Assembly (NCBI GenBank): GCA_018656645.1
Contig: JABHZL010000054.1
Span: 1-53,718 of the forward strand
Direction of reading: 5' to 3'
Source: Phycisphaerae bacterium
Lineage (GTDB): Bacteria > Planctomycetota > Phycisphaerae > Phycisphaerales > SM1A02
DNA: 53,718 bases
How positions within the stretch are numbered: the first letter of the stretch is position 1; each line of letters begins with the position of its first letter. Of this stretch, positions 28,087 to 39,084 are shown one piece after another. The notes beneath the pieces were generated by a model, which did not search any database, was not told where the DNA came from, and saw only the letters and a program-made list of their open reading frames with translations. The position numbers and the translations under genes are program-made.

Positions 28087-28108
28087 GCCTTAAATTGCTT
28101 TGTACCGC

Positions 28109-28114
28109 TATCAT
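28109..28114 (+). promoter_or_regulatory. -10 box of the rnhB-like gene, leaderless type
   Basis: TATCAT ends 7 nt before ATG 28122. No Shine-Dalgarno. The -35 zone of this promoter overlaps the mnmA promoter on the other strand. Confidence 0.55.
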
Positions 28115-28121
28115 TCACGAT

Positions 28122-29084
28122 ATGTTGGTGTATGCAGGTATTGATGAAGCGGGATATGGTCCGATGTTCGGCCCACTTTGCGTTGGCGCATCAGTAATGG
28201 TTCTGGAAAATTACGACCCCTCTCAAGGTGAACCTGACCTTTGGGAAATTCTGGGCGATGCAATTTGCAAAAAAAGAAGTGACCGTCGCAAACGAATTGC
28301 GGTCAATGATTCAAAAAAACTCAAATCCAGTTCAACTCCGAAAGGATTAAAGCATTTAGAACGAGGCGTTTTGTCTTTTTTGAGTACCACAGGCCAAGCA
28401 ACTCCAAAGGTAGATAGTGAATTTTTTGACGCCATTCATGGCACACTTAAACAAAATCCTTGGACAACATTACAAACAAATTTGCCCCTTGCAGTAGACC
28501 CCGATTCGTTGCTAATAGACATTGCTTGCCTTGCACGTGATTTACTAAAATCAAATGTTCGTTGTGATTTGTTATTGTGCAAAGCAATTGATGTAGAGGA
28601 TTACAATTCTCGCACCAATTTAGCATCTAAAGCTACACTTAATTTTGCGACTGCCATGCAACTTGTAGAATCGATTGCAACAAAATTTCCAACTGAACAC
28701 CCTCGAATCATGATCGACCGCCACGGTGGTCGCATTCGCTACCGTCAAGATTTACAGCAAGCGTGGCCAGAAGCAAAAATTCAAATACTTGTTGAAAATA
28801 ATGAGATGAGCCGCTACCGGCTTGATATCGATGGACGAAAAGTCACCATGACATTTGCTTCAAAGAGTGATGAAAAACATATGCCAGTCGCCCTTGCCTC
28901 TATGGTTGCGAAATTCACCCGCGAACTCCACATGCTTCGATTCAATAAATATTTCGCTACGCTTGTCCCTGATATCAAGCCAACAGCGGGATATGTCCAA
29001 GATGGCCGTCGATTTCTCAAAGAAATCGAACCGATCCTCGCAGAAAACAACCTCGCTCGCAAATCACTCATCCGCAATTCGTAA
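28122..29084 (+). CDS. RNase HII-like protein with altered signature
   Basis: Member of the RNase H fold closest to RNase HII/HIII, 320 residues. The opening YAGIDEAGYGPMFGPLCVGA matches the HII start IDEAGRGP, with Asp8 and Glu9. Further parts are VNDSKKLKSSS, MIDRHGGRIRYRQDL near 200 (third acidic residue) and the C-terminal ALASMVAKFTRELHMLRFN, which matches the ASIVAKVTRD helix. The junction-sensing Arg (GRG in HII, Lys in HIII) is Tyr12 here. A typical HII is about 200 residues, and the extra 100 or so residues are in the middle (about 90-190). Ribonuclease activity is therefore uncertain. ATG 28122 is chosen over upstream TTG 28095 by its TATCAT box and the fold. Confidence 0.7.
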   Translation: MLVYAGIDEAGYGPMFGPLCVGASVMVLENYDPSQGEPDLWEILGDAICKKRSDRRKRIAVNDSKKLKSSSTPKGLKHLERGVLSFLSTTGQATPKVDSEFFDAIHGTLKQNPWTTLQTNLPLAVDPDSLLIDIACLARDLLKSNVRCDLLLCKAIDVEDYNSRTNLASKATLNFATAMQLVESIATKFPTEHPRIMIDRHGGRIRYRQDLQQAWPEAKIQILVENNEMSRYRLDIDGRKVTMTFASKSDEKHMPVALASMVAKFTRELHMLRFNKYFATLVPDIKPTAGYVQDGRRFLKEIEPILAENNLARKSLIRNS

Positions 29085-29200: not shown

Positions 29201-29228
29201 TTGACGAAGGATTTTGTATTGATACAAT
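29201..29228 (+). promoter_or_regulatory. fusA promoter
   Basis: TTGACG (29201-29206), 16 bp, TACAAT (29223-29228): the best sigma-70-type promoter in the window. Transcription from about 29235 would give a leader of almost 300 nt before fusA. Confidence 0.75.
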
Positions 29229-29234
29229 GTGGGG

Positions 29235-29532
29235 CTTGCCACTGTTTTTGACGATCGGCGTCAATTTTAAGTTGGCTCAATTGGGCGTTTCAGCGGAAAA
29301 GGAGATTTACCGTTGCAAGAAGATGACGAAGAAGACGCCCGGCTGCATTAACGGCTTTCCCAAATGGGAAGTAACCCGAATGTGAGTCGGGTCAAATGTG
29401 AATATTTAGTGCAGCCAATCATTCGATTGGTGAAGAAATTAAAAAACAGAAATCAAGTCGCCTTTGGTAGGCGATCATTGTTATTGAAAAGAAACGCTAC
29501 CGTTCATTGTTGTAGCAAAAAGGTGAATTACC
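29235..29532 (+). ncRNA. Hairpin-rich 5' leader of fusA (candidate structured RNA)
   Basis: This 298-nt stretch, without a large gene, has five perfect hairpins in order: TTGACG/CGTCAA (29248-29264), TTCCC/GGGAA (29357-29370), ACCCGA/TCGGGT (29374-29392), CCAATC/GATTGG (29415-29430) and TCGCCT/AGGCGA (29458-29474); a GCTC/GGGC stem at 29275-29286 is imperfect. It starts at a strong promoter and ends with AAGGTG before the fusA ATG. I do not recognise a known RNA family. A cis-regulatory leader controlling EF-G is the simplest idea; a stand-alone small RNA is the alternative, although no terminator is visible. Confidence 0.5.
29313..29351 (+). CDS. Possible acidic leader peptide (12 aa)
   Basis: TTG start with AAGGAG (29299-29304) eight bases upstream, encoding MQEDDEEDARLH and a TAA. 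It lies inside the fusA leader. Seven of its first eleven residues are D or E. Such a short frame can arise by chance, but the ribosome-binding site is one of the best in the window. A 20-codon ATG frame (29325-29387) overlaps it in another frame and has weaker support. Confidence 0.25.
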   Translation: MQEDDEEDARLH

Positions 29533-31644
29533 ATGGCTTTAGATCTAAACAAAGTAAGAAATATCGGCATTTGTGCCCACATCGATGCTGGCAAGACAAC
29601 AGTAACCGAACGCGTGTTGTATTACACAGGCAAAAGTTACAAAATCGGTGAAGTACACGAAGGTACCGCAACAATGGACTTCCTTGAGGAAGAACAAGAA
29701 CGTGGCATCACTATCCAATCTGCTGCGACAACTTGTCCATGGGAATTTGATGGCGACACCTACACAATCAATCTGATCGATACTCCCGGCCACGTAGATT
29801 TCACTATTGAAGTTGAACGATCAATGCGTGTCCTTGACGGTGCAGTTGCAGTCTTCGATGCAAAAGAAGGCGTTGAAGCACAATCCGAAACGGTTTGGCG
29901 CCAAGCAGATCGCTACAACGCCCCCCGCCTATGCCTCATCAACAAGATGGATAAAATTGGTGCTGACTTTGAATTCAGCTACAACACTGTCCGTGAACGC
30001 CTAGGCGCAAATGCCGTCGCTGTACAACTTCCAATCGGTGCTGGCGATACATTCGAGGGCATCATTGACCTCATTGAAATGAAAGCCTACTACTTTGACA
30101 GTAGTGAAATGGGTGCAGTTGTAGAACAACGAGAAATTCCAGACGACATGCGAGAAATGGCTGAACTCTGGAAGCATGACATCGTTGAAAGAATCGCTGA
30201 ACTTGATGATGAACTCACCGAACTCTACATTGAAGATGAAGCTGCAATCACACCTGATCAACTCAAGGCTGCACTCCGTCGTGCAACCCTTGAAATGCGG
30301 GCTTTCCCAACATTCTGTGGCTCAGCACTCAAAAACATTGGTGTGCAACGCGTTCTCAATGGCGTCATTGAATATCTTCCAAATCCAACTGAAGTTCCAG
30401 ATGTTCAGGGTACAAATCCAAAAGATGAAAGTGAAAAACTAACTCGTTCACATAACGATGACGCTCCTTTCTCAGGTCTTGTATTCAAAGTAGTCAACGA
30501 TTCACATGGTGACCTCACTTATGTTCGTGTTTATTCTGGCCGTCTTGAAAAAGGTAGTCGTGTGCTGAATCCAGTGAATGGTCGAAAAGAAAATGTTTCA
30601 CGAATTTACGAAATGCATGCGAAAGATCGCCAAGCACTTGACTTTGCTCCTGCAGGAACAATTGTTGCTGTTATTGGTCTGAAAAACTCTGGCACTGGTG
30701 ACACACTTTGTGACGTTAACAATCCAATTGTGCTTGAACGAATGCACTTCCCTGACCCAGTGATTTCAATGTCAATTGAGCCAATTACAAATGACGACAA
30801 GAAAAAACTTGGCGAAGCGCTCACTACTATCACACGCGAAGACCCTTCTTTCCGTGCACGATATAACGATGAGACTGGCGAAACTATTATTTCGGGCATG
30901 GGTGAACTTCATTTAGAAATCGTGAAAAACAAACTCACACGTGATCTCAAAATCGGCGTGAACGTTGGTACACCTCGTGTAAGTTATCGAGAAACAATTA
31001 CTGCTGTTGCTGAAAATGTTCGTGGCAAATTTGTCAAACAATCTGGTGGTCGTGGTCAATTTGGTGACGTTGTTCTCAACGCACGCCCAATGACAGAAGC
31101 AGAAGCAAAAGAACAAGAACTCAACATGAAAAATGGTGTCGTCTTTGTTGACAAGATCAGCCATGGTTCAATTCCACGTGAATACATTTCTTCGGTTGAA
31201 GCAGGTGTCCGGGCAGCAACTGCTTCTGGCATTCTTGGTGGGTACCCACTTGTGAATGTTTGTATTGAACTGATCGATGGTTCGTATCATGAGGTTGACT
31301 CAAGTCAAGTTGCTTTTGAACAAGCTGGTGCTCTGGGTTGCCGTCAAGCATGCACGCAAGCAAAACTTGCGCTTCTTGAACCAATTATGAAAGTAATAAT
31401 TACGACTCCAGATGAATTCTTTGGCTCAGTCAGTGGCGACCTTGCTAGTAGACGTGGTCAGATCAACGACTCTGAAGTTCGCGGCGTCGTTCGAATCATC
31501 AATGCTGAAGTTCCACTTTCAGAAATGTTTGGTTACACAACCGTCTTGCGTGGTATGACGCAAGGTCGCGCTTCCTCCACAATGGAACCATCCGAATATA
31601 AACTCATGCCAGAAGGTCTCAAAAAGGAAGTTTTGGCTTCGTAA
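29533..31644 (+). CDS. fusA: Elongation factor G
   Basis: Ribosomal translocase GTPase, 703 residues, full family length. G1 is AHIDAGKTT (15-23), switch [11 protein letters not shown] near 86, NKMD near 141 and the [11 protein letters not shown] segment in domain III near 455; domains IV and V follow to ending [16 protein letters not shown]. It keeps all GTP-binding elements. AAGGTG lies just before the ATG. It is not next to rpsL, rpsG or tuf as in the ancestral str operon; its neighbours are the RNase HII-like gene and ribD, and it has its own promoter and a long leader. Confidence 0.97.
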
Positions 31645-37776: not shown

Positions 37777-39084
37777 ATGGCAACAGCAATGGCAGAAAAA
37801 CGCCAACGATTACAAATTGCGTTCGACGCTACGATCGACCCAAAGATCGCAGAGTTGCTATCCTCACATTTTGAAATCGTAGCCCCTGACCAAGAGAGTG
37901 AATTGATCCTTTCTGGCGGTGGGGCAATCCAAGCAAAAATTAACGCCATTTGCGATGCTGGAATGGAACTTACTCAGTTTGACGCTTCGACCGTTCGATC
38001 ACTTAATGTCGCGCAGCGACTTCGGTTAATGGAAGAAAAAGTCATTCTATACGTACACGACCTTCTTGATATGGATAACTTTGAGATACGTTTGCTTGAC
38101 CAACGCACTGGTGCACTTGAGTTGGTCATTGCAGAAAATCTTTCGCCCCTAAAAATTGGCGAGGTTATTTTTGCAAAAGAGACTGAAAATGGTATTTGTG
38201 GTCTTGTTGCTTCAACGGGGACAAGTTATATCTGCGGCGATGTTGAAGCAGAACCACTCTATAAAACGGGTCTTGACAGTGCCGCCTCTTCACTCACAGT
38301 CCCACTTTGGATGAACGACAAAATCATTGGTGTATTTAACGCAGAATCAAAAACAAAAAATGCATTTGATGAGAATGATCGACGCATGGCTGAAATATTC
38401 GGTCGGTACATCGCAGGCGCAATGCATACGTTAGATCTCTTAGTTGTTGAGCGTTACACTACAAATGAAGAAGTCTCAAAGAATATTCTTACAGAACTTG
38501 AAGAACCCTTGAAACTTATAGCTGACCTTTCAAACAAATTACTTCTAAGTGGAAGTGATGTAGATACTGCAAAGAAACTTGTAGCAGCATCAGAAACAGT
38601 CGAACAACGATTAAAAGCGTGTACCGGTGGACCACAAACAATTTTAGACGCTGACCGTGCAGGTTTTATCCAGGCCGATCCAACGCTTCAAGGTAAGAGA
38701 GTCCTCGTTGCTGATGACGAAGAAGCCGTCCGATTGGGCGTGCGAGATGTCATGGCAAAACTTGGGTTTGAAGTAACAGTTTGTGTAGATGGCACTGAAA
38801 CTTATGAAGTACTGAAGGATTCAAAGGCTGCTGGAACACAATTTGATCTGATTATTTCTGATATTCGTATGCCAGGTCTCAATGGATATGAAGTTTTTCA
38901 TGCTGCTACAGAATTTTGGCCGGATCAAATTGTTGTGCTGATGACTGGCTTTGGATACGACCCCCACCACTCCATCATGCGAGCAAGCCAAGAGGGCATG
39001 CACACAGTGTTGTTCAAACCATTTAGAACCGATCAGCTGATCGAAATTGTGCAAAAAGCTTGCCGAAAAAAGGTCGGCAATTAA
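37777..39084 (+). CDS. GAF domain - response regulator protein
   Basis: A cytosolic signalling protein of 435 residues with the order GAF then receiver. The GAF domain spans about 85-225 (EKVILYVHDLLDMDNFEIRL, GICGLVASTGTSYICGDV, SLTVPLWMNDKIIGVFNAES). A helical linker follows that looks like a dimerisation helix but has no H-box histidine, and there is no ATPase domain. The receiver spans about 305-430, with the phosphoacceptor Asp362 in IISDIRMPG, LMTGFG, and the conserved Lys in LFKPFRT. No DNA-binding or enzymatic output domain is present, so it likely passes the signal by protein contact. The long open frame begins at 37681; I take ATG 37777 (or 37789). Confidence 0.8.
   Translation: MATAMAEKRQRLQIAFDATIDPKIAELLSSHFEIVAPDQESELILSGGGAIQAKINAICDAGMELTQFDASTVRSLNVAQRLRLMEEKVILYVHDLLDMDNFEIRLLDQRTGALELVIAENLSPLKIGEVIFAKETENGICGLVASTGTSYICGDVEAEPLYKTGLDSAASSLTVPLWMNDKIIGVFNAESKTKNAFDENDRRMAEIFGRYIAGAMHTLDLLVVERYTTNEEVSKNILTELEEPLKLIADLSNKLLLSGSDVDTAKKLVAASETVEQRLKACTGGPQTILDADRAGFIQADPTLQGKRVLVADDEEAVRLGVRDVMAKLGFEVTVCVDGTETYEVLKDSKAAGTQFDLIISDIRMPGLNGYEVFHAATEFWPDQIVVLMTGFGYDPHHSIMRASQEGMHTVLFKPFRTDQLIEIVQKACRKKVGN

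Follow-up and report, generated by a model that had tools for sequence, protein, structure and literature searches.

What is the leader of about 300 nt that precedes the gene for elongation factor G (EF-G) in this member of the Phycisphaerales, and what might it do for the gene? In the window (the whole stretch of 53,718 nt that was analysed), fusA occupies positions 29533-31644 of the + strand, encodes 703 amino acids and is assigned to EF-G by TIGR00484, with 922 bits against a cut-off of 659.4. Profile matches place an RNase HII-like gene (28095-29084) on its 5' side and ribD on its 3' side. The RNase HII-like protein, 329 amino acids long, scores low against TIGR00729 (46.9 bits, cut-off 123.3) and reaches 48.6 bits with Pfam RNase_HII; a gene of this kind often adjoins fusA in the host family. 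As an earlier note on this DNA had proposed, fusA stands apart from the ribosomal-protein genes, the S12 gene being found on a different contig (C68) of the host genome (G000, about 2.0 Mb). Both a Rho gene and an L31 gene are encoded in this genome, and no EttA was found there above cut-off. A 607-amino-acid ABC protein frame at G000:C113:4929-6458 scores 322.5 bits, under the EttA cut-off of 806.75, and a further, diverged EF-G-like protein (32% identity) is encoded at G000:C71:75-2075.

Promoter and fold of the leader

The strong promoter claimed in the earlier note is indeed present, and it is listed here with three of the local hairpins of the leader.

29201-29228, + strand: sigma-70-type promoter TTGACG-16-TACAAT, 10/12 consensus positions, predicted transcript start at about 29235
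29248-29264, + strand: 5' hairpin TTGACG/CGTCAA; genus relatives have like hairpins with different letters, e.g. TTGCGA/TCGCAA (by eye only)
29415-29430, + strand: local hairpin CCAATC/GATTGG, retained in the two closest species (by eye)
29458-29474, + strand: local hairpin TCGCCT/AGGCGA with a weak terminator-like tail (terminator-like site 29457-29475), retained in the two closest species (by eye)

Promoter-like sites numbered 2, against 1.1 expected from shuffles, and the one at 29201-29228 is retained in genus relatives, as judged by eye. Two conserved blocks emerged from a DNA search of relatives, one around the promoter and the other at about 29291-29347. The description of a hairpin-rich leader of about 300 nt also held up, as the sequence (313 nt folded) reaches -93.3 kcal/mol with a z of -3.31 that none of 100 shuffles equalled, and all five perfect local hairpins are of 6 bp (29248-29264, 29357-29370, 29374-29392, 29415-29430 and 29458-29474). 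Equally, no known RNA class could be recognised: a search with 4227 Rfam families gave no match at the gathering threshold across the whole window, and at E up to 10 it gave two matches around the leader, both at chance level.

Across the host family, what is kept is a short upstream open reading frame (uORF) with its own hairpin, S1, and not the five local hairpins; other hairpins turn over. Mean fold z, computed on up to 50 leaders for each segment, was -2.40 for the S1 segment; three further segments of the leader lay between -0.57 and -0.81, and a control segment in the upstream gene gave 0.14. Terminator-like sites in the leader region numbered 3, compared to 0.5 in shuffles; two are on the + strand, their tails are weak, and neither is retained in the rest of the genus (by eye). 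Two out-of-frame short ORFs, 29227-29385 and 29364-29651, showed no conservation when compared by eye only.

A conserved acidic reading frame upstream of fusA

The uORF had been overlooked in the earlier note. It spans 29313-29351, is preceded at 8 nt by the Shine-Dalgarno (SD) sequence AAGGAG, and its 3' end lies within the conserved hairpin.

29299-29304, + strand: SD AAGGAG of the uORF, spacing 8 nt, anti-SD duplex -8.7 kcal/mol
29313-29351, + strand: putative leader-peptide uORF, 12 codons, TTG start, TAA stop, peptide MQEDDEEDARLH

Its codons read TTG CAA GAA GAT GAC GAA GAA GAC GCC CGG CTG CAT TAA. The uORF was present in all 13 genus genomes searched, with peptides such as MQEDDEEDARLH, MQEDEEEARLH, MQEDDDEEARLR, MQEDDEEEAQLH, MLEDDEEEARLN and similar ones, and in 13 of 13 there are acidic residues among the first residues. 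Pairwise comparison of the 12-codon forms found in the genus, eight in number, gave 12 differences at the first, 21 at the second and 72 at the third codon position, of 308, and that of the five 11-codon forms gave 0, 6 and 10 of 100, with the pairs in these counts being mutually dependent. The sole length difference of the uORF in the genus is one codon, and the flanks show gaps of other lengths.

Beyond the genus, we could compare 70 distinct uORFs, in which start and stop types interchange (ATG 40, TTG 28 and GTG 2; TGA 51, TAA 15 and TAG 4). The third base of their Asp and Glu codons was C in 121 cases, A in 84, G in 58 and T in 48, and because acidic codons end in all four bases, a purine-rich RNA is not the thing that is kept. 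Codons 4, 5 and 6 are acidic in 61, 58 and 62 of the 70, a set that was selected for acidity; as these uORFs were selected for acidity and for an SD, such features are not independent evidence there, whereas the genus data are. In the host family, acidic codons begin at codon 3 or 4 in 61 of 62 uORFs, and three to five codons separate the last acidic one from the stop in 54 of 62. At the level of sequence, then, a short ORF with a ribosome-binding site precedes fusA and is conserved as coding, which is what is looked for in a leader-peptide regulator.

Distribution among relatives

To count the uORF in relatives we used a fixed rule (6-16 codons, an SD, three close Asp or Glu residues, and a position 100-450 nt upstream of fusA) on fusA regions drawn from among the matches listed, skipping incomplete fusA starts and leaving out G139 and G087. 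Four of 127 host-family regions were dropped from this count for a wrong or short upstream sequence, and two of 45 order rows were dropped because they fall within the host family. An acidic uORF was then found in 60 of 123 sampled host-family regions, compared to 8 of 2460 shuffles, and in 15 of 43 sampled regions from other families of the order, compared to 12 of 860. Outside the order, where regions came from the rest of the class and from further classes of the same phylum, the count was 0 of 46 (0 of 920 shuffles). Under this strict rule, 63 of the 123 host-family regions are without the uORF. The only other short ORF in the window that satisfies the rule, MGEVEDVM, lies on the minus strand. 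Altogether, 79 automatically called uORFs were reduced to 78 (62 from the host family, 16 from the order), with L083 judged false and L170 assigned an inner start.

Presence of the uORF follows the EF-G tree (fasttree; 108 tips, 63 with the trait) with at least nine changes; the tree used a slightly looser rule than the 60 of 123 count, some genomes entered it twice, and L199 is a probable false positive and L220 a probable false negative. In this tree, L235 (titled Gammaproteobacteria) and L233 (titled Singulisphaera) are placed amid the Phycisphaerales, and they are probably misnamed metagenome-assembled genomes.

Most of the main lineages in the order, though not every one, have acidic peptides, whose letters vary and which share early acidity. 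Besides MPNDEDDDARPR and MQFDEEETARSR, the peptides encoded before fusA include MESIETDDDSGPH and MNDEDD, which, together with MDSSDEDADAGPRP, MDEDEDNSRP, MNDDDEVGPR, MPGDSDNDDDAGC and MLDEGKDARLR, exemplify different lineages. We derived a covariance model of the uORF and hairpin from 41 of the 43 leaders used for counting S1 (below), and it matched 62 of 151 host-family genomes and 26 of 45 genera. Its matches below E 1e-4 number 59; hand comparison showed that 53 of them immediately precede fusA and that the other 6 are on contigs lacking the fusA start, and five weaker matches are located elsewhere. The match at this locus (29299-29392) scores 58.2 bits, with a sequence that belongs to the model's own building set; a second match in the window (38694-38739) is weaker, at 21.7 bits.

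A few individual leaders deserve a separate mention. L092, L097 and L120 have, in the same place, strong-SD short ORFs of other make-up (MVEVSESAGLLT, MDQIKEGNIQAPLR and MPDESVNARLC), perhaps decayed or altered. In L268, an f4 genome, the stop of MNDEDD is now a sense codon, giving MNDEDDFRFTPRP; its neighbours L272-L274 and L281 retain the stop. In L121, L124, L128, L132, L141, L162, L163 and L165, for example, the gap from the end of the RNase HII match to fusA is about 86-200 nt and there is no acidic uORF; L131 and L152, for example, are without the uORF yet have more than 450 nt between the RNase HII match and fusA.

A hairpin that overlaps the end of the reading frame

29337-29392, + strand: S1 hairpin in the register shared across the family, GCCCGGC at 29337-29343 (Ala-Arg-Leu codons) with GTCGGGT at 29386-29392
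29341-29416, + strand: longer stem predicted in this species, 29341-29351 (TAA stop included) with 29406-29416, segment z -6.1

The longer stem encloses the hairpins at 29357-29370 and 29374-29392 and is also part of the minimum-energy fold of the leader. In most host-family leaders, the last uORF codons (GCC CGN ...) pair with a downstream segment that ends in CGGGC or close to it. The earlier note had named conservation and covariation in relatives as the test of the leader, and both were found. In an arm-swap test that needed no anchoring (50 of 60 leaders retained by a similarity cut; L073 and L170 left out), cognate arms reached -19.86 kcal/mol versus -16.44 kcal/mol for swapped ones, a difference that 0 of 2000 permutations equalled, and 43 of 50 leaders beat the mean of their own swaps. 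The same test was null for the 5' part of the uORF with the downstream stretch, for the uORF and for its 3' end with the upstream leader, for the uORF 3' end with the last 70 nt, and for the stretch after the uORF with the fusA start. S1 also ranked best among 214 window pairs scanned (pairs at least 28 nt apart). Six other pairs had z below -4: one corresponds to a hairpin within the loop of S1, another to S1 itself over a shorter distance, and the remaining four involve windows able to overlap or touch in shorter leaders, near which there may be a second local hairpin.

Counting on an alignment of 43 of the 62 host-family uORFs, in which the arms were anchored by complementarity (a procedure that favours structure) and which omitted 13 leaders with other peptide types or unclear S1, together with L172 and five near-duplicates, gave 21 cells altered on both sides and a covariation score of 0.233 versus 0.162, neither of which was reached in 500 shuffles. 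Doubly altered pairs (5 versus 4.5) and further pair types (16 versus 14.9) showed no excess over shuffles in this alignment. Sliding S1 by one column also yielded 21 doubly altered cells, but left 48.8% of cells paired, versus 86.0%. Among 20 leaders outside the host family, swapped without a similarity cut and with a wider arm around the stop, the cognate partner was preferred (3 of 2000; control 921 of 2000), though in the order set of 14 leaders, with a narrower arm, the uORF 3' end was scarcely more paired than shuffles (7.57 versus 7.02 of 14 positions). S1 was not seen in the five MPGD-type leaders L106, L109, L110, L112 and L113 (z -0.3 to +1.5). With one arm of S1 inside it, the uORF overlaps a predicted RNA structure that a ribosome on the uORF would alter.

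What had been described as a leader of an RNA type yet to be named is partly that, being conserved, covarying and unlike anything in Rfam; a purely structured RNA is not supported, as an acidic short frame and one hairpin that includes its 3' end make up the deeply conserved part. The leader is best read as a conserved acidic leader peptide with a hairpin, and not as a structured RNA of unknown type.

Competing pairings, the fusA start and output signals

29283-29340, + strand: competing upstream pairing, GGGCGT at 29283-29288 with ACGCCC at 29335-29340 of the uORF (complementarity, leader fold)
29520-29526, + strand: fusA SD AAGGTGA, -4.3 kcal/mol versus -8.7 kcal/mol for the uORF SD

The upstream pairing could sequester the uORF, and no covariation was seen for it in the host family by the swap test. 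A wider pairing of the transcript 5' end with the uORF is suggested by the genus alignment, where RNAalifold proposed mainly this; it was dropped and is not claimed here, because the swap test gave no covariation for it in the family. RNAalifold on the unanchored family alignment returned no structure.

In uORF-bearing mRNAs, median SD strength was -8.7 for the uORF and -3.1 for fusA; for fusA it was -4.1 in host-family members without a uORF and -4.4 in a more distant set of 51 regions that includes four from the same order. The spacer from uORF to fusA has a median of 194 nt and a range of 140-364 nt, and neither the swap test nor the 214 window pairs gave any conserved pairing with the fusA start. 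The longest T-run between uORF and fusA is at most four in 70 of 78 leaders, so that there is little sign of intrinsic terminators. A Rho signature based on C-richness was considered and discarded as not specific to the uORF, with a median C-G skew of 0.08 in uORF leaders, 0.19 in host-family members without a uORF and -0.06 in the outgroup.

Proposed mechanism and alternatives

We consider it likely that many Phycisphaerales control fusA through a leader-peptide regulator, in which the acidic uORF and S1 set the yield of EF-G. The conserved acidic frame, the covariation of S1, the site before fusA and the contrast between a strong and a weak SD are observed, with the proviso that the search for uORFs required an SD and acidic residues, so that these features were partly selected for. 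From this we infer that the uORF is translated, that a signal is sensed and that a regulatory output follows. By analogy, the uORF would best be read as encoding a leader peptide akin to those of mgtL and mgtQ, which senses ribosomes and controls EF-G; the uORF and its hairpin probably let ribosomes report their own performance, and so set the amount of EF-G.

The strong ribosome-binding site would load ribosomes onto the uORF, which has 6-15 codons, with codons 3-8 being largely Asp or Glu. Given the geometry of the ribosome, and since S1 starts just after the acidic run, the mRNA entry of a ribosome in that run would be at S1, so that during synthesis of the acidic stretch its leading edge might meet the hairpin, the 5' arm of which is the rest of the uORF or begins just past the stop. 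The fate of the ribosome, be it passage, delay or drop-off, could then decide if S1 is open or closed, and the state of S1 would set the yield from the weak fusA start 140-364 nt downstream. If, by analogy, the acidic residues slow or destabilise the ribosome, then ribosome stability or translocation capacity may be what is sensed. Candidate inputs would be EF-G itself, Mg2+, L31 or an ABC-F protein; candidate outputs would be Rho-dependent termination in the untranslated spacer, fusA translation and mRNA decay, among which Rho-dependent termination is slightly favoured.

One specific version, possible though rather doubtful in our judgment, is that EF-G controls itself by a test of translocation: the acidic chain would be made facing S1, recycling would count as well through a stop placed within the hairpin or next to it, and a shortage of EF-G would lead to lingering or drop-off and hence to more fusA expression. 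The logic would be comparable to that of release factor 2, which senses its own stop codon, and, if true, the motor of the ribosome would have an ancient feedback loop, which many lineages of one order have kept. A related possibility, which we regard as unlikely, is a programmed sensor of termination and recycling, where a stop in S1 would slow release or recycling by EF-G and RRF and the acidic run would only tune the process. EF-G does act in ribosome recycling, many leaders have their stop inside the predicted hairpin or at it (folds, by eye), and TGA is the stop in 51 of 70 distinct uORFs; the last codons, however, vary by lineage (ARLR, AGPC, SGPH, and none in MNDEDD), whereas acidity is common.

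The same observations can be set against other explanations. A purely structural RNA leader that binds a ribosomal protein or a ligand, its short frame being a by-product of GA-rich RNA, would explain why S1 covaries and why the leader folds better than shuffles, but would leave third-position variation, a length difference of codon size, the exchange of start and stop codons and the pyrimidine third bases of acidic codons without a reason; moreover, structure is weak outside S1 and, outside the host family, the peptide is acidic though its letters and the hairpin sequence differ, all of which makes this quite improbable. We attach similarly little credence to a leader peptide sensing the supply of Asp and Glu or of their charged tRNAs in the manner of amino-acid attenuators, even though a run of Asp and Glu codons with a hairpin just downstream is what such a device would look like: Asp and Glu interchange within the run, so that no single tRNA is monitored, the controlled gene is that for EF-G, and intrinsic terminators are scarcely seen (T-runs of at most four in 70 of 78). 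Neither the pathway codon run nor the intrinsic terminator of an amino-acid attenuator was found here, T-runs being short in most leaders and the terminator-like sites in the window weak. That about half of the host-family regions manage without the uORF might lead one to think of a chance frame in a spacer, with no function, but the shuffle, outgroup, tree and swap controls largely contradict this, and it is hardly credible. The ribosome-sensing leader peptide hence stays the preferred reading.

Comparison with known systems

Stalling peptides such as TnaC and those of erm type are specific arrest sequences that answer to a ligand. They share with the fusA uORF the combination of a nascent peptide and an RNA structure in a leader; in the fusA uORF, however, the sequence is variable and acidity is what is conserved. 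A closer likeness is found among acidic peptides. According to PMC8092293 and PMC11282234, acidic residues early in the nascent chain destabilise or pause ribosomes, an effect counteracted by L31 or EttA, and mgtQ and mgtL exploit this destabilisation to switch mRNA structure. Like the fusA uORF, mgtQ of the Salmonella mgtCBRU operon is a very short ORF with Asp or Glu near its start and overlapping alternative stem-loops, and its acidic residues were shown to matter in an L31-dependent way; it differs in having Asp2 and Glu5 in 8 codons, in lying between mgtC and mgtB, and in a switch that exposes the mgtB ribosome-binding site (PMC8092293). The fusA uORF, instead, has at least three acidic residues, its own promoter and leader, and the EF-G gene downstream; a conserved pairing that involves the fusA start was not found. 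MgtL, the leader peptide of mgtA, likewise has early acidic residues, and ribosome drop-off on it alters mRNA folding, but it has an EPDP motif with prolines, a Rho-dependent terminator and an Mg2+ transporter as its target (PMC11282234); the acidic runs before fusA are mostly without internal proline.

Leaders are also known, at times, before fusA or its operon in the form of rpsL leaders and the rpsL motif, which differ in being attenuators of the terminator type in streptococci and, in SAR11, a junction of three stems; no acidic uORF is described for them in passages of PMC2965389 and PMC2704228, and the fusA leader analysed here has no Rfam match. A literature search limited to open-licence papers returned no report of an acidic leader peptide before fusA.

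Acidic chains that destabilise the ribosome are tied, in passages of PMC8092293 and PMC11282234, to Mg2+ transporters in enteric bacteria. Compared to these, EF-G would be an unexpected target. The acidity, and not the letters of the peptide, is what is conserved here, before a core translation-factor gene in Planctomycetota known from metagenome-assembled genomes, which suggests that ribosome destabilisation is more widely used as a gauge of translation. It might indeed be one answer to the problem of matching EF-G to ribosomes once fusA was separated from the S12 gene, and about 70 distinct natural sequences are now available to probe what makes such destabilisation work.
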